Source of the DNA: Methanosarcina sp. KYL-1
Lineage (GTDB): Archaea > Halobacteriota > Methanosarcinia > Methanosarcinales > Methanosarcinaceae
Reading direction: 5' to 3'
DNA: 36,231 bases
Assembly (NCBI RefSeq): GCF_024372725.1
Contig: NZ_VOUA01000036.1
Coordinates: forward strand, 1-36,231
The number at the start of each line of letters is the position of its first letter. Position 1 is the first letter of the stretch. The notes under the pieces were generated by a model. It saw only the letters and a program-made list of their open reading frames with translations. It was not told where the DNA came from and ran no database searches. Of the stretch, positions 7,971 to 35,998 are shown in pieces. The position numbers were made by a program, and so were the translations under genes.

Positions 7971-9430
7971 GCGAGGAATACCCGGATAAAAACCCGGAAG
8001 AATGCCCGGACAAAAAACCGGGACAGGAAACTCCCGTGTGCAAAGGGTGCTGCTGCGGAGATGGGGACGCCGAAGAATTCACTGAAGAACCCGAAGCCGG
8101 AGAAACTGGCGAAGCCGGGGAAGAAAGCCAGGAAAAGATCACGGTCACCACCAGCATGGACCTGCAGGGCTCCCACTTCCTCTACACCCAGGCCACGGAA
8201 AAGTCCATCAAGACCCTGGACTACGACTACAAGCGCTGCAACGGCTGCGGGATCTGCGTGGAGATCTGCCCCACAAAAGCCCTGGAAGCCGGGCCCATTC
8301 ACGAGATTGCAACAGGGCTTGATGCCCCACCCGTAATGATGGACCTTGAGAAGTGCACCTTCTGCCGGATGTGCGCAAACCTCTGCCCGGTCCATGCCAT
8401 AACCTTCGAAGCCATAGGCGAAGTCCCGGACGAGAAGCAGTACCCGAAGTATGACGCTTACGTGAACATCAATGAGAAGTGCCTCCCCTGCGCCCTCTGT
8501 GAAGGGGCCTGCCCCCAGGACGCAATCGAGGTGGAGTTCACCTTCCCGAAAAAGGAAGAGATCGCACCTTTCAAGGAAGGGGCCGAGGGTGAAATCGAAA
8601 TCGATATGGACAGGTGCAACTTTTGCGGGATCTGCGCCCGCTTCTGCGACGCCTTCATCCTGCTCGAGCGCGAGCCCACCCCCGATAATATCGTGCCCTT
8701 CGAGCAGCTCCTGGTAGATGAGGACCGGTGCGACTACTGCGTGCTCTGCCAGGACCTCTGCCCCGAAGAGGCCATAAAGGTCAAAGGGGAACGCCCCTGC
8801 GAAGCCCCGAAGGTGGAAGGCAGCATAAAAGTCGACGAGGTCAAATGCACCCAGTGCGGCCGCTGCCAGGCTGTCTGCCCCTATGAAGCCGTGGACCTGC
8901 AAAAGCCCATGGAAGGAGAACTGGCCCTGATCGAGCTCAACCTGAAAGAGTGCGACCCACAGGGCTGTCGCGGCTGTTTCAACGTCTGCCCCTCAAAGCT
9001 CTGGTACGTCCCCACAGACCCCGAAGACCCCCGGAAGATCGCCTTTGCCGAAGACTACTGCACCTACTGCGGGGCCTGCGTGAAAGCCTGCCACCTGGCA
9101 GCCATAAAACTCGAACGCACCTACGTCCACCACACCGAAATCCCGGACACCCCCTGGGCAGCCCAGTGGAAAGATGCCATCGAGTCCCTCAAAACCGGTG
9201 TAAGGAAGGGAGTTGACCGCGCAGTCTTACGGGAAACCGAGACCCTAAAAGCCCAGAAGTTCATGGGAATCGAGCCCCCCGAGGCAAACATGCAGCTTGC
9301 AGCCGTCCAGGCTAAGATCGACTCACTTATGCCTGCTCTCAAGAGCCCGAAAGTCAGGAAACTCTGGGAAAAGGATTCCACGGAAAATGTCCTTGCTGCA
9401 GTGAAAAAGAAGATGGAAAGCGAAGCTTAA
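7967..9430 (+). CDS. Polyferredoxin with eight ferredoxin motifs, partner of HdrA
   Basis: 487-residue electron-wire protein. Eight ferredoxin-type motifs run from about residue 91 to 375, starting with CNGCGICVEICP. Motif four lacks the usual proline (CGICARFCDAF), motif seven is expanded (CDPQGCRGCFNVCP), and motif eight ends CHLAA instead of CP. The first 60 residues are acidic, low in complexity and contain a separate Cys cluster (CKGCCCG); the last 90 are Cys-free and helical. The layout resembles FwdF/FmdF polyferredoxins, so it may connect HdrA with the formylmethanofuran dehydrogenase encoded divergently upstream; that link is inference. GTG start overlapping the hdrA stop (GTGA), with GGAGGT six bases upstream. 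Confidence 0.92.
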   Translation: MSEEYPDKNPEECPDKKPGQETPVCKGCCCGDGDAEEFTEEPEAGETGEAGEESQEKITVTTSMDLQGSHFLYTQATEKSIKTLDYDYKRCNGCGICVEICPTKALEAGPIHEIATGLDAPPVMMDLEKCTFCRMCANLCPVHAITFEAIGEVPDEKQYPKYDAYVNINEKCLPCALCEGACPQDAIEVEFTFPKKEEIAPFKEGAEGEIEIDMDRCNFCGICARFCDAFILLEREPTPDNIVPFEQLLVDEDRCDYCVLCQDLCPEEAIKVKGERPCEAPKVEGSIKVDEVKCTQCGRCQAVCPYEAVDLQKPMEGELALIELNLKECDPQGCRGCFNVCPSKLWYVPTDPEDPRKIAFAEDYCTYCGACVKACHLAAIKLERTYVHHTEIPDTPWAAQWKDAIESLKTGVRKGVDRAVLRETETLKAQKFMGIEPPEANMQLAAVQAKIDSLMPALKSPKVRKLWEKDSTENVLAAVKKKMESEA

Positions 9431-13858: not shown

Positions 13859-15760
13859 ATGGAAAAATACGATTATAGTGAACTTGGGCTGAAAGCCGGG
13901 CTTGAAATTCACCAGCAGCTGGATTCGAAGGAGAAGCTGTTCTGCAGGTGTCCGACCCTGATCCGGGATCTGGGGGATTCGGACTTTGAGTTTTTCAGGT
14001 ATCTCAGGGCTACGGAAAGCGAGATGGGAGAAAAGGACAGGGCTGCGGTTGAGCAGACAAAGATCAGGAGGAAGTACATATATAAGGCGTATGACACGAC
14101 CTGCCTTATAGAAAACGATGAGGAGCCTCCGAGGGAGCTTAATAAGGAGGCTCTTGAAATCTCCCTGGGGGTTGCAAAGCTTTTCCGGATGAAGCCGGTC
14201 GACCAGCTGCACGTTATGAGAAAGATCGTGGTGGACGGGTCAAACACCAGCGGCTTTCAGCGGACGGCGTTCCTGGCAAGCAACGGAGTAATCGAGACCT
14301 CGGAAGGGCCCTGCGGGATTGACAGCCTCTGTGTGGAAGAGGAAGCTGCCCAGAAGATCGAAGAAATCGGGGACTCAATTGTCTATTCCCTGGACAGGCT
14401 GGGGATTCCGCTTGTGGAAATTGCAACTGCACCGGATATCAAGTCCCCCAGGCACGCCCGGGAGGTTGCCGAGCAGATAGGGATGATCCTCAGGTCTACC
14501 GGGAAGGTCAAGAGAGGGCTTGGAACCATCAGGCAGGACGTGAACATCTCCATTGCCCAGGGCGCAAGGGTCGAGATCAAAGGGGTTCAGGCCCTCGACC
14601 TGATCGAAGACATCGTCCGGAGGGAAGTGGAAAGGCAGCTCAACCTCCTGTTTATCAGGCAGGAACTCCTCGAGCGGGGGGCTTTTGTCTGCGAAGAAAT
14701 CTATGACGCTACAGGGCTTTTCATGGACACCAAGTCCAAGGTCCTCCAGAAGGGTGTAAAGAAAGGGGCAATCCTTGCCGCCCTTCTTCGGAAGTTTAAC
14801 GGGCTTGTCGGCAAGGAAGTCCAGCCCGGAAGAAGGCTCGGGACCGAGTTCTCGGACCGGGCGAAAACTGCCGGAGTAGGAGGGCTCTTCCACACTGATG
14901 AGCTTCCCAACTACGGGATTACGGAAAAGGAAGTCCAGGCCCTCAGGGATGCCATCGGGGCAGGACCCGAGGACGCCGTTATCATGGTCGCAGATGAGCC
15001 GGAGAAATCCAGGCTTGCAATCGAAGCCGTCATCCTCAGAGCAAAAGAAGTCCTCGAGGGCATCCCCGAAGAAACCCGGAGAGCGCTTCCCGACGGAAAC
15101 ACCGCCTACATGCGCCCGCTGCCCGGGGCTGCGCGGATGTACCCGGAAACCGACGTCCCGCAGATCGAGATCTCCCAGGAGTACTTTGACTCCATCGAGA
15201 CCCCTGAACTCCTGACCGAGAGGGCAAAGCGCTTTGCCACCGAATACGGGCTGAACAGGGAACTTTCCGAAAAGGTAGCTTACTCCAAGCACCTCCCTCT
15301 CTTCGAAAGCCTGCTTGAGAGCTACAGGAAAGACGCAAACGTAAACGCAACCCTTATCGCCAGGACCCTCGTTGGCATTGTCCCCGAACTCCGGAGAAGC
15401 GGGGTTGACACGGAAAACCTTTCCGACGAGCACTTCAGAGGGCTTTTTGCAGCCATTTCAAATCAGGAAATCGCAAAAGAAGCCGTACAGGACCTCCTGA
15501 CCGCTCTTGCAAAAGAGCCGAACCTGAGTACACAGGAAGCCATTTCCCAGCTCGGCCTCAGCGCCTTCGACCCCGCAGAAATCGAGACATTCATCAAGAA
15601 CCTCGTCCGGGAAAGGGGCGATTTCATAATAGAAAAAGGCCCTGCAGCCCTTGGCCCCCTGATGGGCATTGTCATGCAGGAATACAGGGGCACGGTCGAC
15701 GGGAAGATCCTGAGCCAGATGCTGAAAACAGAAATAGACAACTTCATCACCCAGGGATAA
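13859..15760 (+). CDS. gatE: Glutamyl-tRNA(Gln) amidotransferase subunit E
   Basis: 633 residues, the normal length for archaeal GatE. With GatD it converts Glu-tRNA(Gln) to Gln-tRNA(Gln); GatE phosphorylates and amidates the tRNA-bound glutamate. The GatB-type core begins [14 protein letters not shown] and includes [10 protein letters not shown] and [12 protein letters not shown] (about 220-232). A GAD insertion typical of GatE and bacterial AspRS follows (about 280-400, with [10 protein letters not shown]), and a YqeY-type tRNA-binding tail ends with [13 protein letters not shown] near the C terminus. ATG start with GGTGA five bases upstream. gatD is not in the window. Single gene, strong GC-rich codon bias. 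Confidence 0.97.
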
Positions 15761-20094: not shown

Positions 20095-20165
20095 AAAGAA
20101 ACGGTACTGCCGGAATAGGTGTATTTCCGTGGATTTTGTTACCGTGCGTAGCACGGGCTTTTCCA
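20095..20165 (+). repeat. Dispersed ~70-bp repeat with hairpin, left copy
   Basis: Contains GCCGGAATAGG and, at 20142-20156, the hairpin CCGTGC-GTA-GCACGG followed by GCTTTTCC. A related copy in the same orientation lies at 34045-34120 with hairpin CCGTGC-GCA-GCACGG. It may also terminate the aminotransferase transcript. Confidence 0.7.
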
Positions 20166-20558
20166 GAAAAAATGTAAATAGATAGAGAATATAAAGACTA
20201 GTGTCTAGGCAACTTAGTTATGAGACACTTTAATTATAAAATCTGTAACTATGGAGATGCTATCATATAAATTGTGTTTCAGATTTAATTTGTCGTGACA
20301 CCAGAACCCTGCAGGAAGTACACCTATTATTTTCGTAGCAAATTCAACCTTTTTTTAAGCTGCATTACTCTGAAATTGAATCCTATCCTTATTTATTTTT
20401 TCTACTATGGGCACACAACGGGTTAAATTTAACTAATTATTTTTGTGGATTCCATAATTCTTGTTTTAATTTGAGTACTTTATGACCAAAAAGTAAATTT
20501 AAAAAAAAGTATTTCAGCCAGATAAAAAGTATCAGTTCTCAGGTTAATTTGGATGTTA

Positions 20559-20572
20559 TTGAAATATTTCAA
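20559..20572. promoter_or_regulatory. 14-bp palindrome before the large fusion gene
   Basis: Perfect palindrome TTGAAATATTTCAA centred about 50 bases upstream of the ATG. Nearly the same sequence (TTGAATATTTCAA) lies at 26390-26402 upstream of the carbamoyltransferase gene. Candidate operator shared by island genes; inference only. Confidence 0.3.
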
Positions 20573-20614
20573 CATAATACTCCATGGATATGTCAAATAA
20601 TGGAGCTATAAAAC

Positions 20615-23600
20615 ATGGACGAATTGAAGAGAAAACAGAAAGTACAAAAAATACTTAAGGCTACTTATCCCAAAAAACACTTTAAATTCATAGGTTCAGG
20701 ATATGAGGCAGTAATTTTTACTGACTTTGCTCACATCTATAAGGTTTTCGACACAGATCTGGCAAACATGCCTCTTCTTCTAAAACAATTAATCGGGAGA
20801 TTTAAGGGCTGCCGAAGATTGTTCGACCTGGAAGAACTTCTTGATGTAGGGGGACTACCTGTCATTAAATATATTTATAAAGAATCGAAACCTTATACAG
20901 GTGGCAGGGAAGATGAAGTCATCGAGTTCTTGGTCGAATGCTGGGAAAGAGGGATTGTTCTCTGGGATGTTAAACCACTGAACTTTCAAATCTTTGAAGA
21001 TGGAATCCGTCTCATAGATTATGGACGGGACATAAAACCCTTCAACTACAAAGATTTTGTTTTTATGGCTCAGAGAGCTTTCTTGATGTTGAAATATTCG
21101 GATAGAAGTAGTTTTAAACCTCTTGTCCGCGAAGCTCTTAAAAACTGGGAGGTAGAAGAGTTAGCCGGTTTTGTAGACTTTTTTAATAAGGTTTATTCTA
21201 AGATATTATGCTTTGAAAAAGAGAAACCGTGTTTACCCCCTGTAACTCTCTTTAATGATGAAATGTTATTTAAGCAAATATGGGAAACTTTACCAAAACT
21301 CCAGTATGATGAAAAAATATTGTTATATTCTTCAAAAGTAACAAGTCCATCACACATTAAAGCAGATAAAGAAAGAATAATTCATGTCACAGATATCAAT
21401 CTATTTCAAGAAACTGGATTTTACGAGACAGCCATTGTAGACATCACGGGAATAGAAAGAAATTTACCTATAGTTTACAACATACTCGCAAAAGTTAAAA
21501 AAATAATTAATGATTCAAGTCATTGTGCTGTTGTTCTGAAAAATCCTTATTTTCATGGCAAAGAGGGTAAACATCCCTTAACAAATTTGCAGAGATTGAT
21601 AACAAATGCAGGCTTTTTCATTGAAAAAATTGAAGATACCAAATGGCAGATAGATCCGTCTGGTGATTTCTATTCTCAGTATATGATTATCAAATCAAGG
21701 GCAAGAAAAAATCATGGAAGCAATGTTAGTTTGATGATAAAAACTTGCTACCAGGACGGACCTGCCCTGGAAAAATTGGTACACCATATTGTCCATCAAC
21801 TGGAAGGTCCAGATAGATTTCTGGAGAAGATAATTGTTCTGGACCCAAAAGAGGATGATTTTCTGAGGCAGTTCGGGATGCCCGACAAAGAACTTACGCT
21901 AAAAACCTTAGATAAGTTGCTCTCCAGGGGAATTATAGACAAGTATTTCATAGCACCAACCGACCCAAACATTATCAAAGAAGTTAATCAACGATGGTTT
22001 GCCCTTCATACTGAATTAACTCACAGTGTTACAAATGTGCCTGTTTTTCCACAACTATACGCCTTCGAGCAATGCATGGGAGATTATATACTGCAGGTTG
22101 ACTCCGATGCAATAATAGTCAGAAGGGACCCAGGACACAGCTTTTTAAAAGACATGAAGGCGGCTTTACAAAATAATGAAAAAGCTCTGTCCGTTTCTTT
22201 TAATATTGCACATCACCCCGATACACCTGTGAGAGAATACACTTCACCGGGAAATGGTCATTTTGTCCCAGAAGTCCGTTTTTGTCTTATCCATCGTGAA
22301 AGATTCTTTCAGCAAAGACCATATCCCAATACACTTGTCAATGGTCAACTAGAACTAACCTGGTACCGCTCAGTTGAAAAAGCGCAGGCTGAGAGGGGGC
22401 TTGTTTCACTCAGAGGAGGAGACCCCCGTACATTCTACATACATCCTCCAAATGAGTATAAGAAAGATCTCAATAAATGGTTCTTTATTATGGATAGAGC
22501 TGAATCGGGACATATCCCCGAAATCCAGTTTGAAAATGTAGATCTACAGGGCAAATTTGATGATTGGAACATACCAAAAAGAAATGAACCGTTTATCTTC
22601 ATTATGTGTGCAAGAAATCTTGCTCCATCAAAATTCCTTAGATGCTGGCAGTCAGTGTTGGGGCAGACTATGGAAAACTGGGGTGCTATAATAATTGATG
22701 ATGGGTCAGATAACTGCCTTCCAGAATTTATTTCTTTTCTAACAAATGGATATAAGCATAAAGTAACGTACATCCGCAATAATAAAAGAAAAGGAGTTCT
22801 TTCAAACATAAACAAAGCTATCAGAGATTTTTGCATCAATCCTTATTCGATAATAATAATTTTAGATGCAGATGACATGTTGCTTTCTAATGATGTTCTT
22901 CTGAATCTAAATAGACATTACCTGAAAGGAGCTGATATGACTGTTGGTTCTATGTTACGTATAAACAAAGGAATCATTCCCTACGTTCCGGACTTCAAGA
23001 ACCCTCGAAATAAGAGGGGAGGTGACGTCTGGATGCATCTCAGAACTTTCAGGAAATATCTATTTGATCGTATAGACCTAAATGACTTTAAAAGGAATGG
23101 GCAATGGATCGACAAGTTCACAGAACTTACATACATGATACCAATATCTGAGATGGCAGCTAAACCGGTGCATATCAAATTCCCTGTATATCTATGGGAA
23201 CCGCAGCATGTTAGAAACGATGAGCATTATCGGAAGAACAGGGAAACAATAGAATATATAATGGCAAAACCACGGTACTCAATAAAAAACATTAAAATGC
23301 TTGATGAAGTAAAACCTCCTGGAGAGATTTTAAAAGATATAAATAGTGAAAGACAGATTATATTTATAAGACATGCTGAAAAACAAGTAATAGAAGGAAT
23401 GCCAGGAAAAAGAACTCAAAAAAATGTTGATTTAACCGAAAATGGTTTTGTTGAAAGTAATCATTGGGGCGCCAGTTTACCCGTGAAAATAGACCTGATT
23501 CTTGTAAGCCCCACTTTGCGAACGGTTCAAACAGCAGAAAATATAAGGAAAGGAAACGCATCAGACTGTGAAATAATAGTAATTAATGAATTGAGGGAAA

Positions 23601-23935
23601 TGCCAATAATAAATTACGATGAATGGCAAGAAATCAAAAATGAAGTAGGTTGGATCCATTTAATTAAAAAGTGGATAAACAATGAAATTCCGGATTCAAT
23701 CATAATGTCATATGCTCAATTCATGAATTTTATTCTCAAAGAAATTATGGAAAATATCGAAAAGAAGAATGCTGAAAAAGTCTTAGTTATCACACATGAT
23801 CATATAATGTACGTTCTTTCAGCATTTTTTTTAAATTCCATCCCTCAAAAGTTAAGGTACTTGAATGGTTTTGTGATTGAAAAAAGAGATCTAAATGAAA
23901 AGTTGGAATTATCTGAAACAACGCAAATCAGGTAG
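20615..23935 (+). CDS. Five-domain fusion: kinase-like, methyltransferase-like, two glycosyltransferases, histidine phosphatase
   Basis: 1106 residues. (1) 1-200: protein-kinase-like fold with glycine loop GSGYEAVIF (from 27), YKVF lysine, catalytic-loop-like D118-V-K120-P-L-N123, and DFG-like D135-Y-G. (2) About 205-345: weak resemblance to the second half of a class I methyltransferase (LITNAGFFIEKI), with no glycine-rich SAM motif, so probably inactive or something else. (3) 350-620: GT-A-like domain with D496-S-D498. (4) 640-880: family-2 glycosyltransferase with D695-D696 and D751-A-D-D. (5) 915-1100: histidine phosphatase with R919-H920, LRTVQTAE, an ELREMP glutamate and H1061 in ITHDH, apparently complete. 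No membrane segment. GGAG about 11 bases before ATG. WbdD, which combines methyltransferase and kinase to cap O-antigen chains, is a loose precedent. The next gene starts five bases after the stop. Confidence 0.82.
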   Translation: MDELKRKQKVQKILKATYPKKHFKFIGSGYEAVIFTDFAHIYKVFDTDLANMPLLLKQLIGRFKGCRRLFDLEELLDVGGLPVIKYIYKESKPYTGGREDEVIEFLVECWERGIVLWDVKPLNFQIFEDGIRLIDYGRDIKPFNYKDFVFMAQRAFLMLKYSDRSSFKPLVREALKNWEVEELAGFVDFFNKVYSKILCFEKEKPCLPPVTLFNDEMLFKQIWETLPKLQYDEKILLYSSKVTSPSHIKADKERIIHVTDINLFQETGFYETAIVDITGIERNLPIVYNILAKVKKIINDSSHCAVVLKNPYFHGKEGKHPLTNLQRLITNAGFFIEKIEDTKWQIDPSGDFYSQYMIIKSRARKNHGSNVSLMIKTCYQDGPALEKLVHHIVHQLEGPDRFLEKIIVLDPKEDDFLRQFGMPDKELTLKTLDKLLSRGIIDKYFIAPTDPNIIKEVNQRWFALHTELTHSVTNVPVFPQLYAFEQCMGDYILQVDSDAIIVRRDPGHSFLKDMKAALQNNEKALSVSFNIAHHPDTPVREYTSPGNGHFVPEVRFCLIHRERFFQQRPYPNTLVNGQLELTWYRSVEKAQAERGLVSLRGGDPRTFYIHPPNEYKKDLNKWFFIMDRAESGHIPEIQFENVDLQGKFDDWNIPKRNEPFIFIMCARNLAPSKFLRCWQSVLGQTMENWGAIIIDDGSDNCLPEFISFLTNGYKHKVTYIRNNKRKGVLSNINKAIRDFCINPYSIIIILDADDMLLSNDVLLNLNRHYLKGADMTVGSMLRINKGIIPYVPDFKNPRNKRGGDVWMHLRTFRKYLFDRIDLNDFKRNGQWIDKFTELTYMIPISEMAAKPVHIKFPVYLWEPQHVRNDEHYRKNRETIEYIMAKPRYSIKNIKMLDEVKPPGEILKDINSERQIIFIRHAEKQVIEGMPGKRTQKNVDLTENGFVESNHWGASLPVKIDLILVSPTLRTVQTAENIRKGNASDCEIIVINELREMPIINYDEWQEIKNEVGWIHLIKKWINNEIPDSIIMSYAQFMNFILKEIMENIEKKNAEKVLVITHDHIMYVLSAFFLNSIPQKLRYLNGFVIEKRDLNEKLELSETTQIR

Positions 23936-23940
23936 TACAA

Positions 23941-24699
23941 ATGAAGAATGGGTATGAAACATCACTTGATTTGATTGAAATAGATGTAACTTTCAAATGT
24001 AACCTGATGTGTTATAATTGTGACCGTTCTTGCAGGCAGGCTCCTGAAGAAAGACACATGAGCACCGAACAGATTGGTAAATTTCTCGAAGAAACCCAGA
24101 AAAAAAATCGTAGCTGGAAAAGGATACGTATATTGGGAGGAGAACCGTATCTTCATCCAGAAATCCACGAAATAATGAGGATGCTTGCAGAATATAAATC
24201 TGAAAATCGGGACACAGTCGTTGAAATAGTAACAAATGGATATGGTCCAGAAGTAAACAAAGCTATTAAAAATACACCTACAGACATCATAATTAAAAAT
24301 ACAAAAAAAGTTTCTCAATATAATAAAAAATTTGAGCCATTCAACATAGCGCCCGTGGATAAAAAGGAATACTTATCTTCTGACTACACTAAAGCATGCT
24401 GGATAACTGAGGAATGTGGAATGGGGTTAAATCCATACGGATATTATCAGTGTGGAGTAGCCGGGTCCATAGACCGTGTTTTTGGGTTTGATATCGGGCT
24501 AAAAAAAATGCCAGATGAGCAACAACAACTGACACCACTAAAAAAGAAACTTTGTGCATATTGTGGCCACTTTCTTAATCAAAAATTTATACCACCTGAA
24601 GCAAGAAAACCTTTGATTGGAGAGCCCCAAACAAGATCATGGAAGATGGCTTATTCAAATTATAAAAAACAAAAACCATCGATGACTGTGTACCTGTAA
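23941..24699 (+). CDS. Radical SAM protein with C-terminal auxiliary cysteines
   Basis: 252 residues. The radical SAM cluster is C20-x3-C24-x2-C27, followed by the GGEPYLHPEI segment (66-75) that binds SAM. After a short core, cysteines C153, C159, C171 (in YGYYQCG) and C205-x2-C208 resemble a SPASM or twitch auxiliary-cluster region. At 252 residues it is short for a radical SAM plus full SPASM enzyme. It follows the large fusion gene by five bases with AGGTAGT upstream, so the two are almost certainly cotranscribed and may act on the same sugar or carrier. The reaction is unknown; no precursor peptide gene is seen nearby. Confidence 0.85.
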   Translation: MKNGYETSLDLIEIDVTFKCNLMCYNCDRSCRQAPEERHMSTEQIGKFLEETQKKNRSWKRIRILGGEPYLHPEIHEIMRMLAEYKSENRDTVVEIVTNGYGPEVNKAIKNTPTDIIIKNTKKVSQYNKKFEPFNIAPVDKKEYLSSDYTKACWITEECGMGLNPYGYYQCGVAGSIDRVFGFDIGLKKMPDEQQQLTPLKKKLCAYCGHFLNQKFIPPEARKPLIGEPQTRSWKMAYSNYKKQKPSMTVYL

Positions 24700-24728
24700 T
24701 CTGATTCTTTTTTCCGAAAGTAGACCAT

Positions 24729-26294
24729 TCAATTTTCGAGATCATCCTTCGAGATAAGTTTATCTTCAATTAAAATATGCGTTAGAGAAGTTTCCCTTAG
24801 AATCTTAAAAGCGTCTTCATATCTTGTAATCAATGGTCTACCCTTTACGTTAAATGACGTGTTTAAAAGTATAGGGCAACCACCTTTATCGTTGATTTTT
24901 TTCAGAAGACTGTATAACCAGGGATTTTGTTCCATCGAAACTGTCTGAACCCGGGCTGTGCCGTCAAGGTGTGATACGGCAGGAAAACGCTTCACTGCAT
25001 CCTTTCGGAGTAAAAAAGAGAAGGACATAAACGGGGAATTAACATCTTCTCCAAGGAAAAAATTTGAATAATCAATTGGAATAACCGGAGCGAAAGGTCT
25101 GAACCATTCCCTATTTTTTATATTTTTGTTAATAAGGTCCTTAAGTGCTTTGTTTTCTGGATAAGCTATTATTGACCTGTTTCCAAGGGCTCGAGGACCA
25201 ACTTCGGATCTTCCTCTCAAAATGCCTACTATTGAACCATCAAGAAGTTTGTCAGCTATTTCATCAATATCTGCGGTTTTAGCCGAATCAAGAACCTTTT
25301 TGTTTTTTTCAGACAAATTATCAATTGCCAGTAAACCTTTATAGGTTATAGGATTCTTATTGGCTGGCGGGTTATGGTACCAGAGTGCACCGGTTGATAT
25401 TCCGCTGTCATTAGGATTAGGCGGAACATGAACTTGAATCCCGAATCGACTTTTAATTCTACTGTTAGTTATTACGTTTAAGGCACAACCTCCTGTTACA
25501 ATAACACCATCATAACTGGATTTCCATATAAAAGATCCAATTATATCCAGAACTACTTCTTCATAGGCTTTCTGGGCAGAAGCTGCCAAATTTCTTGCAA
25601 TATCCTTCTGCAGTGTTGTACCCATTTCAAGTTCGATATTGAGTTGTTTGCCCAGGAAACAAAGTGATTGCTCAGGTGACCGATAAGTGATGTAGTAATT
25701 CTTTAGAGGGCTAACCCATTCAGCTATGACCTTACCTAAAGCTGCATATCCCATCAGCTTACCTGAGAGTGAAAGATTACCGCATTTTCTGTGCTGCACC
25801 TCTCCATGAGTAATTTCTTGCATCAGGGTCGCTAAAAGTCTGTATGAAGAACCCATGTTTATAGGCTTTGTATCAATCAAGTTAACTCTTTCATTCTGAA
25901 TGTCGAAAACATTCAAAGTACCATCATTTCCACCACCGTCATATGATAATATGAGAGGCGTCTTGAAATTAGAAGTGTGATAGGCGAGTGTTGCATGAGA
26001 CACATGATGGTCGGTAGTCACCCACTTTTTAGCTTTTATGAGGGCTTCCAGAACAGTTTTTTGAGTTGGTGTGACCCAGCTGGTGACTGCTAAATCAAAT
26101 TCATCAAAGCCTGTATAATCATACGTGTACTCAAGAACCTCTTTCCATTGTTTCTCAAAAATTAAGGGATTATAAGAACTTTCAAAATACCTTTCATCAT
26201 ACCATCTCTCAAGTTCGAGAATCAGTTTTATTTCATTTTTATAAGAAATTGTAAGATTAGAATCATGTTTGGTATGGATGGATATGAATTTCAA
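24729..26294 (-). CDS. O-carbamoyltransferase, NodU/CmcH/TobZ family
   Basis: 521 residues. Transfers a carbamoyl group from carbamoyl phosphate, through a carbamoyl-adenylate, to a hydroxyl of a sugar or metabolite. The N-terminal Kae1-like part has HDSN (10-13), metal-binding HHVSHA (96-101), GGNDGT (121-126) and GGCALN (268-273). The C-terminal YrdC-like part has GRSEVGPRALGNRS (361-374), REWFRPFAP (395-403) and LLNTSFN. All motifs look intact. Start is TTG with GGTGA about five bases upstream; no better ATG exists. It converges with the radical SAM gene, with only 29 bases between them. The likely substrate is the sugar made by the island. Confidence 0.94.
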   Translation of the reverse strand: MKFISIHTKHDSNLTISYKNEIKLILELERWYDERYFESSYNPLIFEKQWKEVLEYTYDYTGFDEFDLAVTSWVTPTQKTVLEALIKAKKWVTTDHHVSHATLAYHTSNFKTPLILSYDGGGNDGTLNVFDIQNERVNLIDTKPINMGSSYRLLATLMQEITHGEVQHRKCGNLSLSGKLMGYAALGKVIAEWVSPLKNYYITYRSPEQSLCFLGKQLNIELEMGTTLQKDIARNLAASAQKAYEEVVLDIIGSFIWKSSYDGVIVTGGCALNVITNSRIKSRFGIQVHVPPNPNDSGISTGALWYHNPPANKNPITYKGLLAIDNLSEKNKKVLDSAKTADIDEIADKLLDGSIVGILRGRSEVGPRALGNRSIIAYPENKALKDLINKNIKNREWFRPFAPVIPIDYSNFFLGEDVNSPFMSFSFLLRKDAVKRFPAVSHLDGTARVQTVSMEQNPWLYSLLKKINDKGGCPILLNTSFNVKGRPLITRYEDAFKILRETSLTHILIEDKLISKDDLEN

Positions 26295-26368
26295 AAAATC
26301 ACCATAACATATTTACAATAATGTTCACTCAACCAAGAAGTTTGAGGGCTAATTAACAAACTACATAT

Positions 26369-26402
26369 TTCAACTTTTTAACACGAAGTTGAATATTTCA
26401 AT
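26369..26402. promoter_or_regulatory. Inverted repeat upstream of the carbamoyltransferase gene
   Basis: Stem TTCAACTT (26369-26376) pairs with AAGTTGAA (26386-26393) around a nine-base loop; its right arm runs into TTGAATATTTCAA (26390-26402), nearly the palindrome at 20559. It lies 75-110 bases before the carbamoyltransferase start and just after the GIY-YIG stop, so it may be an operator or a terminator of the upstream gene. Confidence 0.35.
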
Positions 26403-26424
26403 TAAAAAATAAATTTGTTGATCT

Positions 26425-26928
26425 TTATTGTTTGTTATATTCAGGTTCAGTACCAGTAATTTCTTTAAATTCAGCTAGTGCTTCATATTCCAAACAAGCA
26501 ATTTTCCCCATAATTCTCAAATCTTCAGGGGTTCTTTTATTTCTTTTAACCTCACAAGCAACCGCTTTTGCACAAACGAAAAGTTTCTTATTCCAATCAT
26601 CGTAGGGACCAAGTTTACTACGAATAGTTCTACCCCCATTATGGCCTTCTTTTCCTTTAATTGTATTATCCAATTGCTTCCATCTCCCACAGAGCCCCTT
26701 CCTGGAATTAGTCATACCAATGTAAACTACATCTTTATAATCTACCTTTAAACCATGAAGATTTTTATCTGTAATAGAGATCATATAGATTCCAGGATAG
26801 TGTTTTAATTCAAAATCGCCTCTTTCTTCCCAAAGTATCCATTTTGAAAAATCAATCATAAACTTAAATTCAAGAATCTTATATATAGTATTTAGTACTT
26901 TTCTAAGAATCATCCAATCAAAAAACAT
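26425..26928 (-). CDS. GIY-YIG domain protein
   Basis: 167 residues. GIY (46-48) and YIG (69-71) are present with about 20 residues between them, longer than the common ten or so. R82 (GRW), the GGRT segment (98-101), E147/E149 and N165 could supply the remaining active-site residues, so nuclease activity is possible. No DNA-binding domain is attached. The first 23 residues are hydrophobic and lack a ribosome binding site before the ATG; M24 is an alternative start. It shares strand with the carbamoyltransferase but is separated by 130 bases with an inverted repeat. Its role beside sugar genes is unclear: it may be a leftover of a mobile element or a free-standing nuclease. Confidence 0.8.
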   Translation of the reverse strand: MFFDWMILRKVLNTIYKILEFKFMIDFSKWILWEERGDFELKHYPGIYMISITDKNLHGLKVDYKDVVYIGMTNSRKGLCGRWKQLDNTIKGKEGHNGGRTIRSKLGPYDDWNKKLFVCAKAVACEVKRNKRTPEDLRIMGKIACLEYEALAEFKEITGTEPEYNKQ

Positions 26929-26978
26929 TTCTGTGTTAATATAATTAAAGGATGTTGTAGACAGATTATAATTAATAG

Positions 26979-27944
26979 GTGAGATATTTGCATTTAAACC
27001 CTGAAAATCCTATCCTTATAACAGGTGGAGACGGATTCATAGGAAGAAATTTAGTTCAAAGACTTATTCAACAAAATTACACTATAACTGTTATAGATAA
27101 TCACGTAACAAGTTATCCATATAAGATAGGTAATCCTAATTTCAGAAGAATTACTGCTGACATCTCAGAAATCGAAATTGATTCCATTCCTGAAGTATCC
27201 GGGATTATACACTTAGCATCGGTTGCTGCACCTCAGTTGTACAAGAAAGACCCTTCATTAGTCCTGAAACCAAACACAATTGGCACAGCAAAATTAATTG
27301 AAATTGCAAAAAGAGATGGGGTTAGAATCCTTTTTGCCTCAACAAGTGAAGTATACGGAAATGTCCGCTGGGATAAAACAGATGAAAAGGGCATCGAAGA
27401 AGAAAATAATGCAATAGTAAAGCTGTTATCCAAAAGGAGTTGTTATTCGGCAGCAAAGAGATTTGGCGAAGAATTAATTTTGAATTTTAAAAAAAATGGG
27501 GGAGACGCTACGAATTTCCGACTGTTTAATGTTTATGGTCCTGACATGGATACAAAAAATATTGGTTATGGAAGAGTAATACCAAACTTTATCCATAAAA
27601 TGTCTTGTGGAGAACCTATTGAAATATTTGGAGACGGCACACAGGTTCGAAGCTTCTTGTGGATAGATGAAGCTGTGGAGGCTATCTTATCATTATATTT
27701 TTATGAGGGGGACCTTCCCGACGCAGTAAACATAGGAAATGATGAACCTATAACCATAAAAAATTTGGCTGAAAAGATATCTAAGGTGTTGGATCTGAAC
27801 TACAGAGTGAAATATCTGGAAATGGAAGAAGATGATCCCTTATGGAGAAGACCCTGCGTAGAAAAAATTAAAAGCTTAACAGGTTGGGAACCTAAAATCG
27901 GTTTAGATGAGGGATTAAGAATTATAGCAAATAGTAAATTGTGA
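26979..27944 (+). CDS. Nucleotide-sugar epimerase/decarboxylase (extended SDR, UDP-xylose-synthase-like)
   Basis: 321 residues. NAD-binding GGDGFIG (16-22), active-site STSEVYG (121-127) and Y156-x3-K160 in RSCYSAAKR are intact. The RSCY...KR pattern, the glutamate in STSE and the C-terminal RRP...LTGWEPK segment resemble UDP-glucuronate decarboxylases more than plain 4-epimerases, though an epimerase or dehydratase is possible. Its substrate could come from the UDP-glucose dehydrogenase domain encoded at 29729. The GTG at 26979 begins the longest frame, but GGTGAG at 26978-26983 would suit the TTG at 26988, losing three residues; both starts are open. Followed after six bases by a glycosyltransferase gene on the same strand. 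Confidence 0.88.
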   Translation: MRYLHLNPENPILITGGDGFIGRNLVQRLIQQNYTITVIDNHVTSYPYKIGNPNFRRITADISEIEIDSIPEVSGIIHLASVAAPQLYKKDPSLVLKPNTIGTAKLIEIAKRDGVRILFASTSEVYGNVRWDKTDEKGIEEENNAIVKLLSKRSCYSAAKRFGEELILNFKKNGGDATNFRLFNVYGPDMDTKNIGYGRVIPNFIHKMSCGEPIEIFGDGTQVRSFLWIDEAVEAILSLYFYEGDLPDAVNIGNDEPITIKNLAEKISKVLDLNYRVKYLEMEEDDPLWRRPCVEKIKSLTGWEPKIGLDEGLRIIANSKL

Positions 27945-27950
27945 TGTGCT

Positions 27951-28766
27951 ATGGGTATATCAATTGTAATTCGCTGTAAAGATGATGAAAGGGTATTTCG
28001 ATGTATTGACAGCATCGATGAAAAAGCTGAAATCATTGTGGTATTAAATCACAATCCAGATTTGCAAAAGAGGCTTGAGCAAAAAGGCATAATTTGCTGT
28101 ATATCCCCACCGAGCAATTTGTCTATCGTATCAAATATCGGCTTTTTCGCCTCCACTACAGGCAAAGTTATTATTACAGATTCTGACACGGTATTTCTCA
28201 CGGGATGCATAAATAAGATAAATAAAGCCCTTGATAACCATAAAGTTGCAAGAGCCAGGCTCACATTCGATGTAAATAATGAGCTCCCTTTTTCAAAGGT
28301 AGTGGCTGAAGCTCGGGATTATGTCAATTCACTTCCTCTCGTCTACACGCCTGGAATTGGCGTTAGGAAGGACCTTGTAAGGGATATAGGGAATTTCCTG
28401 TTCAATGAGAATGTTCCTTTTGCAGTTGATGCAGATCTTGATTACAGGATAAAAAAAGCAGGAATTGATGTTTTATTTCTGCAGGATGCTCTGATTCAAC
28501 ATTCTGCCGAAGGGATTAAGCACGACATTAAAGCTGCATTGAGAATAGGAAGTGGATGCAGAGTAAGTGCAGAAACTCTTAGCCGAATCTTTAACGGCAG
28601 TAATCCAGACATGATAGGAAAACATTTAAAAGGTGTGAAATTTAGTCATTTTCCAGACTTAATACGAAAAAAGGGAATTGTAGTATTTTTGTATCAGATC
28701 ATATGGGACATCCACTTTTATATAGGATATAATTCCCAAAGGGTTTGCTCTTTGAAAAAAGGATAA
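27951..28766 (+). CDS. Family 2 glycosyltransferase
   Basis: 271 residues, GT-A fold. It begins directly with the nucleotide-binding strand (ISIVIRCKDD), has the metal-binding D77-S-D79 and a later VDADLDYRIKKAG segment like the acceptor-side ED/RxxxG motif of family 2 enzymes. A hydrophobic stretch near the C terminus (about 240-258) is too weak to call membrane-spanning. Six bases behind the epimerase gene, so it probably uses the sugar made by that enzyme. Donor and acceptor unknown. Confidence 0.85.
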   Translation: MGISIVIRCKDDERVFRCIDSIDEKAEIIVVLNHNPDLQKRLEQKGIICCISPPSNLSIVSNIGFFASTTGKVIITDSDTVFLTGCINKINKALDNHKVARARLTFDVNNELPFSKVVAEARDYVNSLPLVYTPGIGVRKDLVRDIGNFLFNENVPFAVDADLDYRIKKAGIDVLFLQDALIQHSAEGIKHDIKAALRIGSGCRVSAETLSRIFNGSNPDMIGKHLKGVKFSHFPDLIRKKGIVVFLYQIIWDIHFYIGYNSQRVCSLKKG

Positions 28767-28791
28767 GAATAAGCATTGAAGGAACTATTAA

Positions 28792-29736
28792 TTATAGCAA
28801 CCCGAGTTGTTCAAGCCTCAAAAGATCGATATTCTCCACATCACTGTGCTCCAATGATTTCCGGATGCTTGCAGCGAGCTGATCTCTGAAACCAGGATTG
28901 TTTTTTAGATAATCGGGAACTGTTGCTTTGTCATAACCAAAGTTGATCTTATCAAAACCAATTTCCCTATAAGTTTTCAAAAATAATGGGATTTCGTGTA
29001 GAGCAAATGTTGTAAGTGTCATTCTTCCGTAAACAGTAAGCTCTGTTCCATTTTCTTCCCTGGCTCTGACAAGCCTTTGAATATTCGAAAGAACTTTCTC
29101 CCAACTTGACCCTCTATTGACCTTCTCATGTGTAGCCTTGGTAGCGGCATTTATCGAAATACTTACCACATTGGCATCAAGGGATAACTTCTCAGCCATT
29201 GAATCAGCAATAAGGAGACCGTTTGTCAAAACAGTGTACTTTTTTTCTTGAGTTGCAAGATAATCCATATAGCTAAGACACTGTGAAATATAAAGCGTTT
29301 CTCCACCCTGTATCACTATTTCTTCAAAAGGGGTTACGTCAATATTTCGAATCAATACTTCCGGATCAAGCATTTGTTGATTTTGCATGTATCTTTTTGG
29401 CTGCTTGCACATAATACATGCAATGTTGCATTTTTCTCCAAAATTAAGGTGAAGGCGACGCATTGTAGAATAATCACATAAAGGACTGATAAGCTCAAGG
29501 TTTTGAGGTACTACAGTTTTTTTGATAAGATTGCAGTTAGGATAGCAGTGAAGCTGACCTTGCAAAGAATACTTTCTACACTTTACAATATTTTCATTAT
29601 TGGCTAAATCTGCAAGTTTCGAGGAGTAAATATTACCAATAATCAGAGGCTGTATATGGCAGCAGCTAAAGACATTACCTTTATTGTCAATTGTAAACCC
29701 ATCCCACAACTGCGGACAATATGTAGAATCAGACAT
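28792..29736 (-). CDS. Radical SAM protein with N-terminal SPASM-like cysteines
   Basis: 314 residues. The N terminus looks like a SPASM auxiliary-cluster domain: C7, a DNKGNVFSCC segment with C25/C26, IIGNIY, then C53, C64 and C68. The radical SAM core follows, with C103-x3-C107-x2-C110 in CNIACIMC, then IQGGETL and strands VLTNG and SISINA. The usual order is radical SAM first and SPASM last, so the protein looks permuted or split from a longer ancestor. Its ATG lies inside the end of the upstream dehydrogenase-transferase gene (8-base overlap), so the two are translationally coupled. It converges with the glycosyltransferase gene. Substrate unknown; a sugar-nucleotide or peptide substrate is equally open. 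Confidence 0.85.
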   Translation of the reverse strand: MSDSTYCPQLWDGFTIDNKGNVFSCCHIQPLIIGNIYSSKLADLANNENIVKCRKYSLQGQLHCYPNCNLIKKTVVPQNLELISPLCDYSTMRRLHLNFGEKCNIACIMCKQPKRYMQNQQMLDPEVLIRNIDVTPFEEIVIQGGETLYISQCLSYMDYLATQEKKYTVLTNGLLIADSMAEKLSLDANVVSISINAATKATHEKVNRGSSWEKVLSNIQRLVRAREENGTELTVYGRMTLTTFALHEIPLFLKTYREIGFDKINFGYDKATVPDYLKNNPGFRDQLAASIRKSLEHSDVENIDLLRLEQLGLL

Positions 29737-31297
29737 CAGTTAAAACCTCTATAGCAAACAATTTTTTGGCTCTCTCGGTAAACTTCTCTTTCTGCTCAGG
29801 GTTCATTCTTGCGCTGTATTTAGAATAAAAATTGCAAATTCCTTGCTTTTTTCTTTCTGACCCCGGGTATGAGAGCCGATCTACTCTTAAAAATGCATCA
29901 TGATGTACCAGGTGATTTCTGAGAATTGCGTATTTTGTTCCACGATCAAGCAATCTGATACACACATCCCTATCTGTAGTGCTGGGCAAGTTCTCATCAA
30001 ATCCCCCAATTGCAACTAACTCCGAAAGGCGAAGAAATAGATTAGAGCCTTGAATATTCGGGTTTGTGATAAAAAAAGTTTCAGCAAAAATAACATCTGG
30101 GATTGGTTGAGTTTCTCCCTGGGGATATGATTCATCATGCCTGATGAGCCCTGATATTGTCCAATCAGAATTTGTCTCCAGGGCATATTTGATGTTATTC
30201 TGGAGATATTGCCTATCCCACCAATCATCATCATCCAAAAAAGCTATATAAGTGTTATCCAGATCAATATTTAATAAAGAAAAATAATCCAATGCTGTAT
30301 TTACGGCACCTGATAGGTTTTTTGTTTTGATGTTTGTGATATGATCTATGTTCAGTTTTTTCCCCAGATCGCTCAAAAAATCATGAATAACCTTTATCGA
30401 AGAGTCACTCTCTTCGGACACTATTATGACCTTATCCGGCAGCCTTGTCTGGGACTCAACTGATTTTAATGCTCTCTTCAGTTTTTCTGGGCGATTATTT
30501 GTTGGAATAATTACAATTATTTTTGATTCAGGGAATTTACTTGGATAAGGAGGCACATTTTTATTTACAGCTTCCACAGCTTCCAGCAGGATTGGGTTAT
30601 CAGCAACACATATTAATTCATGTGTATCCTTTGGAACACATTTTCCTTCATATGGACCAAGACCTGGAGTAAGGTGGTCAGTTGACATTACTCTTCTGTC
30701 TGCCCATATAATACTCATAACATCTATCGGATTAACCTCAAATTGCTGACAGATCTTTTCAATTTCATTCGTGAAACTCACTTTAGTAGCTATAAATGCA
30801 TTATGAGCCAGCTTCCCAAGTTCAGCACTTCTGTAATTCATAATTAAAGTTTTGGCTCCCTTCACCCAACTAAAAAATGACAAAACTTCATTTATATCAT
30901 CCCTTTCACCACTTAAGACAATTCTGTCAGGTTCTGCAAACCATGTGAAAGAGCTTTTTTCTCTAAGAAACTCGGGCATATAAATTAGCCGTAAACCTGG
31001 AAATTTTTTTTTCATTTTTTCCATAAATCCAATCGAGACAGTACTTTTGATCACCACACAACCGTTGTACTTTACCGAATCTAATCTGTTTAATACCTCA
31101 GATACATTACCGCAGTCTAATTCACCATTAGCACTAATAGGCGTCGAAACACAAATGAAAATTATATCAGCAGCCAGTACTGCATCCCAGTCATAGTCCC
31201 CTACAATATCATATCCTACACAATGATAGAATCGGCTTATTCCGTGTATCACAGCCCATCCAACTGAGCCCAATCCGATAACTCCAACGGTTTTCAT
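29729..31297 (-). CDS. Truncated UDP-glucose/GDP-mannose dehydrogenase fused to a family 2 glycosyltransferase
   Basis: 522 residues from the chosen start. Residues 1-250 are the NAD-binding and central domains of a nucleotide-sugar 6-dehydrogenase: GLGSVG near the N terminus, STP at 51-53, MPEFLRE, K162 and N166, and catalytic C220 in GKCVPKD. The C-terminal nucleotide-sugar-binding domain, normally another 150-180 residues, is missing. From about 259 a GT2 domain begins (IVIIPTNNRP), with a FLDDDDWW metal site and a GGFDE...TDRDVCIRL acceptor motif. The frame is open 20 codons further, but the ATG at 31297 starts the Rossmann strand MKTVGVIG and has GTGGT upstream. Activity without the third domain is uncertain. 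First gene of a two-gene leftward unit. Confidence 0.88.
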   Translation of the reverse strand: MKTVGVIGLGSVGWAVIHGISRFYHCVGYDIVGDYDWDAVLAADIIFICVSTPISANGELDCGNVSEVLNRLDSVKYNGCVVIKSTVSIGFMEKMKKKFPGLRLIYMPEFLREKSSFTWFAEPDRIVLSGERDDINEVLSFFSWVKGAKTLIMNYRSAELGKLAHNAFIATKVSFTNEIEKICQQFEVNPIDVMSIIWADRRVMSTDHLTPGLGPYEGKCVPKDTHELICVADNPILLEAVEAVNKNVPPYPSKFPESKIIVIIPTNNRPEKLKRALKSVESQTRLPDKVIIVSEESDSSIKVIHDFLSDLGKKLNIDHITNIKTKNLSGAVNTALDYFSLLNIDLDNTYIAFLDDDDWWDRQYLQNNIKYALETNSDWTISGLIRHDESYPQGETQPIPDVIFAETFFITNPNIQGSNLFLRLSELVAIGGFDENLPSTTDRDVCIRLLDRGTKYAILRNHLVHHDAFLRVDRLSYPGSERKKQGICNFYSKYSARMNPEQKEKFTERAKKLFAIEVLTDV

Positions 31298-31525
31298 ATT
31301 ACCACTTTTTAAAGAAAAACTACTTAAAACATAAATTCTTGAATAGTCTAATATCAACGTAAAAACAGAGATGACTGTAATTATCTTCCTATTTGGATAT
31401 TTCGGAATTTTATGCAGTTATTTACCCACTAATATAGAAGAATATGCAAAGCTTTAACTTACAGAATCAGATTTAAAATGTCAAGTGATGTATCCTAAGA
31501 TAGCAGGAAAAATATGATTTTGATA
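31298..31525. other. AT-rich spacer upstream of the dehydrogenase-transferase gene
   Basis: Should contain the leftward promoter of the two-gene unit. A rightward ATG frame of 28 codons at 31371-31457 has no ribosome binding site and is not accepted. Nothing else is recognised. Confidence 0.4.
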
Positions 31526-31819
31526 AGGTATATCTTACTCTCGGCAGGTCGACATTTAAATTCTAATAATTTTGATGATTGCGATTTTGAAATGATGCTC
31601 TATAATTATGTGTAGTTTTTCGGTTTACATATGTCTAATTATTAAGCTCTCATACTAAACTTTAATGAAAAAATGATTTAGTGTTTATATATGTCTTGGG
31701 AGTTGAGCCACAGGTTAACTATCTTTAAACCTAATATATAGTTAGCTAATGTTCAAAAACGGCATCAAGAAAAATATTCTAATTTCTTATGTCGACCTGC
31801 CGAACGTAGGGTATATACT
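31526..31819. mobile_element. MITE-like element with terminal inverted repeats
   Basis: TCGGCAGGTCGACAT at 31541-31555 is repeated perfectly in reverse complement at 31789-31803. The similarity goes on outward in weaker form (GTATAT plus a TAC block), giving imperfect ends of about 30 bases and an element of roughly 290 bases. The inside is AT-rich and non-coding. This is the shape of a non-autonomous transposon derivative; no transposase is present. A target duplication is not obvious by eye. It lies at the right end of the AT-rich island. Confidence 0.6.
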
Positions 31820-32026
31820 AAAGTCAGCCATTTAGTTCTCCGAACCACTTCCCCTATATGTTACCCTCCTCTTAGAATATCTCCCCCTATACCCGCAAAT
31901 AATGAAAATACAATCCACCTTCGTGAAGTGTTCGCATTTCCTGCACTCCGTAAACCTTACGCTTTTTCCGTCTCTCGGACAATTTTCGATCCATCCCTTA
32001 AGCAATGGAAAAACCCCTTGATCATC

Positions 32027-35230: not shown

Positions 35231-35998
35231 ATGGAACAGTTTTTAATAACCCCGGCGGCAGGAAAAAGATTAATAGCAAAAGCTCTGGTAAAGCATCCAG
35301 CAGTAAATGAATCTCTTGCATCTGGAACCATTGTTATAATTGCTGGAACTACAAATGGTTACGTGGCTGAAGAAATATTGTCTTCTATAGGTCAAGCAGA
35401 AAATTTTTCAAGAAAAAGGTTCTTCAGGGGTATTGTACTTCCTCCTGGCAGTTCTGTAACCAGTTCCGGGCGTATTAAAGATGAAACTGGTTTTCCAGGA
35501 GATGTAGTAATTAAGGATGGTATCTGGAAGCAGGGAGAAACTATTTTTGACGTTGTGGATGATTTGAAGGAAGGAGACGTGATTTTAAAGGGTGTTAATG
35601 CATTGAACCTTCCAAAAGGACAGGCAGGCATTTACATTGGAGATCCACATGGCGGAACTGCTGCTGCATCGATTCAGGCAGTTGTAGGCCGACGTGTCAG
35701 ACTGATACTTCCTGCAGGACTTGAAAAACGTGTTTACGCTGATTTAAATGAATTAGCAAGGAAAGTAAATGCTCCTGGTTCTCATGGGTCTCGTTTATTA
35801 CCTGTAGCTGGTGAAATTGTCACTGAAATCGAAGCAATTTCACTTCTTACTGGTGCCAGTGCAGAACAAGTTGCAGGTGGTGGAGTAAGTGGAGCTGAGG
35901 GCGCTATCTGGCTTGCAGTAGATGGAAACGATGAACAGATTGAATCTACAAAGAAATTGTTAAATTCTATTATTAGAGAGCCTAATTTTGAGTTTTAA
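35231..35998 (+). CDS. Conserved-looking protein of unknown function (255 aa)
   Basis: 255-residue soluble protein. The N-terminal half starts [14 protein letters not shown] and contains [17 protein letters not shown]; the middle has a FPGDVVI and [12 protein letters not shown] pair and [10 protein letters not shown] (about residues 137-147), followed by [16 protein letters not shown]. The glycine-rich loops suggest an alpha/beta protein binding a small molecule or phosphate, but I do not recognise the family and claim no reaction. A Gly-rich [11 protein letters not shown] segment lies near the C terminus. GGAG about 11 bases before the ATG. Codon use is more AT-rich than in the energy genes. 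Single gene. Confidence 0.8.

Follow-up and report, generated by a model that had tools for sequence, protein, structure and literature searches.

Glycan synthases that include a kinase have been described for a few bacterial O-antigens, where most of them are chain terminators. In ORF6 of Klebsiella pneumoniae O7, an assayed protein, a methyltransferase, a kinase and two GT2 modules follow one another on one polypeptide (PMC11231755). In vitro, ORF6 adds phosphate and methyl groups to the glycan end (the D441A substitution kills the kinase), and its kinase and methyltransferase terminate the chain made by the GT2 modules of the same protein (PMC11231755). In the Hib capsule polymerase Bcs3, the CrpP phosphatase removes phosphate between two transfer steps (PMC10299916), and on animal glycosaminoglycans the kinase FAM20B and the phosphatase XYLP control extension of the linker (PMC12110425). 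We describe here a single archaeal polypeptide with features of several of these systems, encoded on a contig of 36,231 bases (the window) from a genome of 4.04 Mb in 66 contigs.

Five modules on one archaeal chain

One unbroken frame from ATG, at 20615-23935 (+), spans 1106 codons and encodes a fused protein of 1106 aa with five modules: kinase-like (KIN), decayed methyltransferase (mt), divergent GT-A transferase (GTa), GT2 transferase (GTb) and branch-1 histidine phosphatase (HP). Genome G702, from another archaeal class, encodes at 5872-9189 of locus L039 a chain of 1105 aa with the same five segments in the same order, 46% identical to that of the window. Because the order recurs at this identity in another archaeal class, it is beyond chance. 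Neighbouring genes of the window recur in G702, where the radical SAM gene comes immediately after the chain and the dehydrogenase-GT2 fusion, a radical SAM gene and a GT gene lie ahead of it. The G702 locus sits on the 2.96-Mb contig of a single-contig genome, which rules out the misassembly that the sequence-only reading had named as a way for its proposal to fail; a frame artefact is rejected as well, since split forms of the chain retain the same neighbours.

Pfam recognised GT2 at residues 663-796 (E 2.6e-18) and His_Phos_1 at 915-1082 (E 2.9e-15), with no match in the first 660 residues; beyond Pfam, the kinase, methyltransferase and GTa segments were identified with family profiles built in this analysis. 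A full-length AlphaFold model of the chain (4 sequences) reached a pLDDT of 36 and was left out of the evidence. The sequence-only reading had proposed all five parts, and Pfam, the family profiles and a model of GTa agree with it throughout. The kinase motifs D118-V-K-P-L-N123 and D135-Y-G, the two separate GT-A metal sites (D496-S-D498 and D751-A-D-D754) and the phosphatase residues R919-H920 ... H1061 on which it relied are all present, and R969 is a further addition.

The protein-kinase-like domain (20672-21211, +; G27/G29 loop, K43, D118, N123 and D135) scores 262 bits by profile. When the kinase-family profile (A7, 12 sequences) was run against the PDB, 1102 sequences matched at E up to 5, and the top-scoring among the matches listed are protein kinases, with MARK4 best (E 9e-6) and CK2 and others also present. 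The N-terminal segment is thus kinase-like by profile, as had been proposed; Pfam Pkinase gave weak matches in 4 of the 12 profile members. Between the kinase and GTa, residues 213-366 (21251-21712, +) align with the intact methyltransferase of relatives (Pfam Methyltransf_23, E 3e-11), which occupies the same place in locus L041, and the segment previously called methyltransferase-like can be placed accordingly; in a profile comparison with the methyltransferase the similarity is weak and local (E 0.0018). The class I SAM motif I (DxGxGxG) was sought in this segment and is absent from both the window and the G702 chains, whereas it is intact in the methyltransferases of the type 2 relatives described below (D-Y/F-GCGRG). 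The remnants of the two chains share just 18% identity. This identity and the loss of motif I are what a decaying domain would show.

GTa (21722-22570, +) is a divergent transferase module. Against Pfam, residues 366-655 gave nothing significant (GT2 at just 12.8 bits, E 0.12, below the cut-off), a sequence search of the PDB matched nothing, and similarity to GTb was undetectable by profile comparison. Modelled alone (4 sequences), GTa adopts a GT-A-type fold (pLDDT 64, pTM 0.71, with five models of unequal quality); Foldseek returned matches with E down to 1.3e-5, and Z is about 12 over 170-200 residues against GT-A enzymes and other nucleotide-diphospho-sugar transferases, the span being about 190 residues for the GT-A enzymes. 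Both D496 and D498 are invariant across 21 GTa homologues. By its model, GTa is a transferase with a GT-A fold, and its family is new and not represented in Pfam. The fold is common to nucleotidyltransferases, and because GlmU and IspD score as high as GT-A enzymes, glycosyl transfer by GTa is likely rather than proven. GTb (22583-23296, +) is a clear GT2-family member (66.9 bits, cut-off 23.3) with D695-D696 and the acidic metal motif D751-x-D753-D754, and its profile matches TagF, GalT1 and chondroitin synthase in the PDB. In the histidine phosphatase (23339-23905, +), which has a separate-gene homologue adjoining the main gene in type 2 loci, the RH motif (R919, H920), the second phosphate-pocket Arg (R969) and the C-terminal His (H1061) occur in order; these four residues are kept in 7 of 7 homologues, and the module is, to judge from them, intact.

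An acquired island and a reshuffled family

The fused gene lies in a low-GC island (20100-31900, about 20.1-31.9 kb), with a GC content of 31-39% vs 50-60% in the adjacent coding stretches, and a GC3 of 0.24-0.34 in eight island genes vs 0.57-0.74 in five of six flanking genes tested, the flanking gene at 35231 being AT-rich as well. A search with the fused protein in 100 genomes, 30 of them congeners, yielded nothing beyond local GT2 matches except in the genome of the window, and the ORF is missing from the 99 other genomes of the same order. Given this low GC and the absence from relatives, the island is, on composition and distribution, horizontally acquired and accessory. No tRNA was found in the 36,231-base window. 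An archaeal GatE is encoded at 13859-15760.

Directly downstream of the fused gene lies rSAM_A (23941-24699, +), a conserved radical SAM partner that is 39% identical to its Salinivibrio counterpart. A NodU-like carbamoyltransferase (Pfam; 24729-26294, -), not found in the other cassettes examined, and an NAD-dependent sugar epimerase/dehydratase (Pfam; 26979-27944, +) follow. Three further genes are common to type 1 and type 3 cassettes: GTc, a GT2-like protein (27951-28766, +), rSAM_B, a radical SAM protein with an N-terminal SPASM-like region (28792-29736, -), and a truncated nucleotide-sugar dehydrogenase fused to a GT2 (29729-31357, -). The last of these lacks the C-terminal UDP-binding domain, and the same fusion occurs in loci L039, L058 and L059; in type 2 loci the short dehydrogenase stands without a fused GT2. 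A 167-aa protein inside the island (26425-26928, -) has GIY...YIG motifs, read by eye, and no Pfam match. Among the island genes we recognised no flippase, polymerase or ABC exporter, and no island protein checked has a strong transmembrane segment.

With our own profiles mapped on 22 loci, five types of cassette were defined. Type 1 (the window and G702) has the order UGD-GT2, rSAM_B, GTc, KIN-mt-GTa-GTb-HP, rSAM_A. Type 2 (seven Methanomicrobia) has UGD, a GT2-DDDx-KIN-MT-GTa-GTb protein of about 1740 aa, and HP. In five of the seven loci the phosphatase is a gene of its own next door; the other two loci run off their contigs. In type 3 (three Methanomicrobia), GTa, rSAM_A and GTc are separate adjacent genes, the two complete loci also having KIN, UGD-GT2 and rSAM_B; no GTb or HP was found in the type 3 loci examined. 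Type 4 (Vibrio and Salinivibrio) runs epimerase, GT2, GT2-KIN-GTa-GTb, GT42-like, rSAM_A, with parts missing in some loci; the name GT42-like is our reading of a GNGPG motif. Type 5, on a Pseudoalteromonas plasmid, is GT2-KIN-DDDx.

The family is sparsely distributed, being found in 7 of 197 Vibrionaceae genomes, 10 of 232 Methanomicrobia (the class of G850) and 4 of 295 Halobacteriota, the window's own genome included, with nothing new among 398 Pseudomonadota or 369 Gammaproteobacteria. A scan of contigs with weak patterns gave only three Vibrio loci, the wider sampling coming from the genome search. No relative was found in E. coli, nor in viral contigs or phages, and a virus origin was rejected. 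The kinase occurs in 9 of the 232 Methanomicrobia, all nine within the 10 that carry GTa (hypergeometric 2e-15, ignoring phylogeny, the genomes being partly related), and this co-occurrence holds even where the two are separate genes. The GTa and kinase trees have the same clades. Co-occurrence and congruent clades together indicate that the kinase works with these transferases.

Several features of the relatives deserve mention in their own right. In three type 2 loci a gene of SLOG cluster 4 (LDcluster4, an identity checked by Pfam in L062 only) directly follows the separate phosphatase (L062 12037-12588, L057 7441-8016, L061 13252-13827), and in L064 (3-4822, -) the frame of about 1740 aa is split into two overlapping frames, a frameshift or sequencing error. 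At L022 9535-9614, the kinase-GT gene overlaps tail to tail with the gene of the GNGPG-motif protein (about 256 aa in the Vibrionaceae loci, without Pfam match); other Vibrionaceae loci conserve an overlap of up to about 80 bases at the corresponding position. Several Vibrio copies lie in variable islands beside defence- or mobility-type genes (WYL regulator and RadC in L023, L024 and L042; McrB-like, HipA and UvrD-like genes flanking L022). The GT2-KIN-DDDx gene of the plasmid (L021 8762-12112) is followed by RibA-like, asparagine-synthase-like and arylamine N-acetyltransferase genes, a locus that we read as another product class with the same kinase.

One might speculate that the product of the cassette is not a surface glycan but a small glycosylated molecule, perhaps with an antiviral or signalling role. 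Radical SAM partners, the lack of recognised membrane or export genes, the SLOG gene that comes after the phosphatase in three or more type 2 loci, and the mobile-element and defence-type surroundings of the Vibrio copies would all suit such a product, which we nevertheless hold to be very improbable, as the sugar dehydrogenase, the epimerase and several glycosyltransferases suit ordinary glycan synthesis and the cassette proteins tested fall in no known defence family, save for weak viperin-like radical SAM matches. A defence system as such was rejected: PADLOC matched nothing beyond these weak viperin hits, and the Vibrio flanks are suggestive only.

The catalytic position of the kinase-like domain

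By sequence, the window domain carries the full set of kinase catalytic residues, namely the VAIK Lys (K43), the HRD Asp (D118), the catalytic-loop Asn (N123) and the DFG Asp (D135). In 18 of the 20 kinase domains of the family, the HRD Asp is replaced by Asn (TNFHPKN, LNIKRDN, NNIHPKN), with the ATP-site Lys, the loop Asn and the DFG Asp still kept; these 18 domains are not independent, nine or more being close Vibrionaceae copies. The Asp is found only in the two type 1 chains, in the context WDVKPxN. The same two chains are the only ones with a fused phosphatase and the only ones with a decayed methyltransferase, so that the link between Asp and phosphatase is drawn from two sequences. On a parsimony reading, the Asp would be a single change on the type 1 branch, as against at least three losses if it were ancestral. 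This parsimony and the restriction of the Asp to type 1 suggest that the window kinase is catalytically competent and that most of its relatives perhaps are not. Since Asn holds the HRD position in most members, phosphotransfer may not be the general role of the family.

The same residues bear on the main rival to a reversible switch, namely that the kinase-like domain regulates the transferases, or acts as their scaffold, by binding ATP or a nucleotide-sugar (or serves some other chemistry), while the phosphatase trims donor-borne phosphate as CrpP does in Bcs3 (PMC10299916). The near-fixed Asn beside an otherwise preserved site favours this pseudokinase, as does the absence of a phosphatase from the Vibrio and type 3 cassettes examined, and Bcs3 provides a precedent for the trimming step. 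We consider it somewhat unlikely, however, for the Asp of the window and G702 chains stands in a canonical DxKPxN context, and precisely these chains carry the fused phosphatase.

Proposed function and precedents

Our preferred reading, held tentatively and with not quite even confidence, is that the fused ORF is a cytosolic assembly-line enzyme of a horizontally acquired, accessory glycan pathway, in which the transferases extend, the kinase phosphorylates and the phosphatase removes phosphate. Module identity, linkage and catalytic-residue conservation are seen in sequence or model; the substrate, the order of steps and their reversibility are inferred. The two GT modules would add sugars to an acceptor; the kinase would phosphorylate a hydroxyl of the glycan or its primer; the phosphatase would remove this phosphate, or a donor-borne one, letting extension continue; and sugars would be supplied or edited by the adjacent sugar dehydrogenase-GT2, the epimerase and the two radical SAM proteins. 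Ancestrally, the chain probably combined the transferases with modification by a kinase and a methyltransferase, as in O7 ORF6. In the window lineage, with the methyltransferase decayed, the phosphatase fused and the kinase bearing an HRD-type Asp, a permanent methyl-phosphate cap could have become a reversible mark. The build-cap-uncap control suggested by the sequence-only reading is in this sense plausible. The more specific proposal, that amid kinase-like domains which are for the most part of the Asn type and probably inactive, possession of a catalytic Asp, loss of the methyltransferase and fusion of the phosphatase gave this one archaeal lineage a single polypeptide that writes and erases phosphate on the glycan being built, we regard as doubtful. 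If true, it would be a self-contained phospho-switch within a glycan synthase.

It could also be imagined that the kinase caps a finished chain in the manner of WbdD of E. coli O9a, with the phosphatase riding along as a housekeeping trimmer of precursors. WbdD resembles the window chain in joining a protein-kinase-like domain to a methyltransferase and in having a glycan substrate; it differs in lacking GT and phosphatase modules and in having the opposite domain order, a coiled coil and an active methyltransferase (PMC3482155). A terminator would agree with the adjacency of kinase and methyltransferase on the same chain as polymerising transferases, as in O7 ORF6 (PMC11231755), and with the intact methyltransferase of type 2. 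In the window chain, however, the kinase precedes the methyltransferase, in reverse of the methyltransferase-kinase order; the methyltransferase is dead; no exporter genes were recognised; and a search of the cassette for a coiled-coil ruler found none, nor a long unassigned helix region, nor room for one between the domains. With neither ruler nor exporter, and with 18 of 20 kinase domains devoid of the catalytic Asp, chain-length capping of the WbdD type is unsupported, and we judge a terminator to be decidedly unlikely.

Whatever the chemistry, this archaeal and vibrio family has its modules fused, split and reshuffled, with one form pairing kinase and phosphatase, and it permits a direct test of reversible sugar phosphorylation in microbial glycan assembly, as on animal glycosaminoglycan linkers. 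Two protein families are added as well, one of glycosyltransferases that no Pfam model covers and one of kinase-like proteins in which Asn is nearly fixed at the catalytic position. The Vibrionaceae GT2-KIN-GTa-GTb proteins (e.g. WP_269587818.1), annotated merely as 'glycosyltransferase', share with the window chain a homologous kinase, GTa, GTb and the radical SAM partner, but have an extra N-terminal GT2, no methyltransferase remnant, no phosphatase and Asn at the HRD position.

The FAM20B/XYLP pair is like the proposed scheme in that a sugar phosphate added by a kinase and removed by a phosphatase balances chain synthesis; unlike the window chain, these are separate human proteins, and no homology is claimed. 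We found no paper on the combination of kinase, glycosyltransferase and histidine phosphatase. The sequence-only reading knew of no described protein with this domain order, and for the exact order this stands within the literature searched; O7 ORF6 (PMC11231755) and Bcs3 (PMC10299916) are nevertheless near precedents and, with WbdD, make the idea less unprecedented than it had seemed. O7 ORF6 also has a methyltransferase, a kinase and two GT modules on a single polypeptide, but its methyltransferase comes first and is active, a coiled-coil ruler lies between the modules, its kinase is AmiN-like and of another sequence type, it lacks a phosphatase and it serves a bacterial O-antigen. Bcs3 likewise carries a phosphatase and two transferases on one chain, but the phosphatase is of the HAD type, the transferases are a GT-B and a PRPP transferase, and there is no kinase or methyltransferase. 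The exact order, the archaeal setting and the first GT family appear undescribed, the family of Asn-type kinases is likewise new, and so is the natural series that runs from fused to split forms. By order, kinase type, coiled coil and phosphatase type, the window chain is a member of neither system, yet it would work most like O7 ORF6 and Bcs3.
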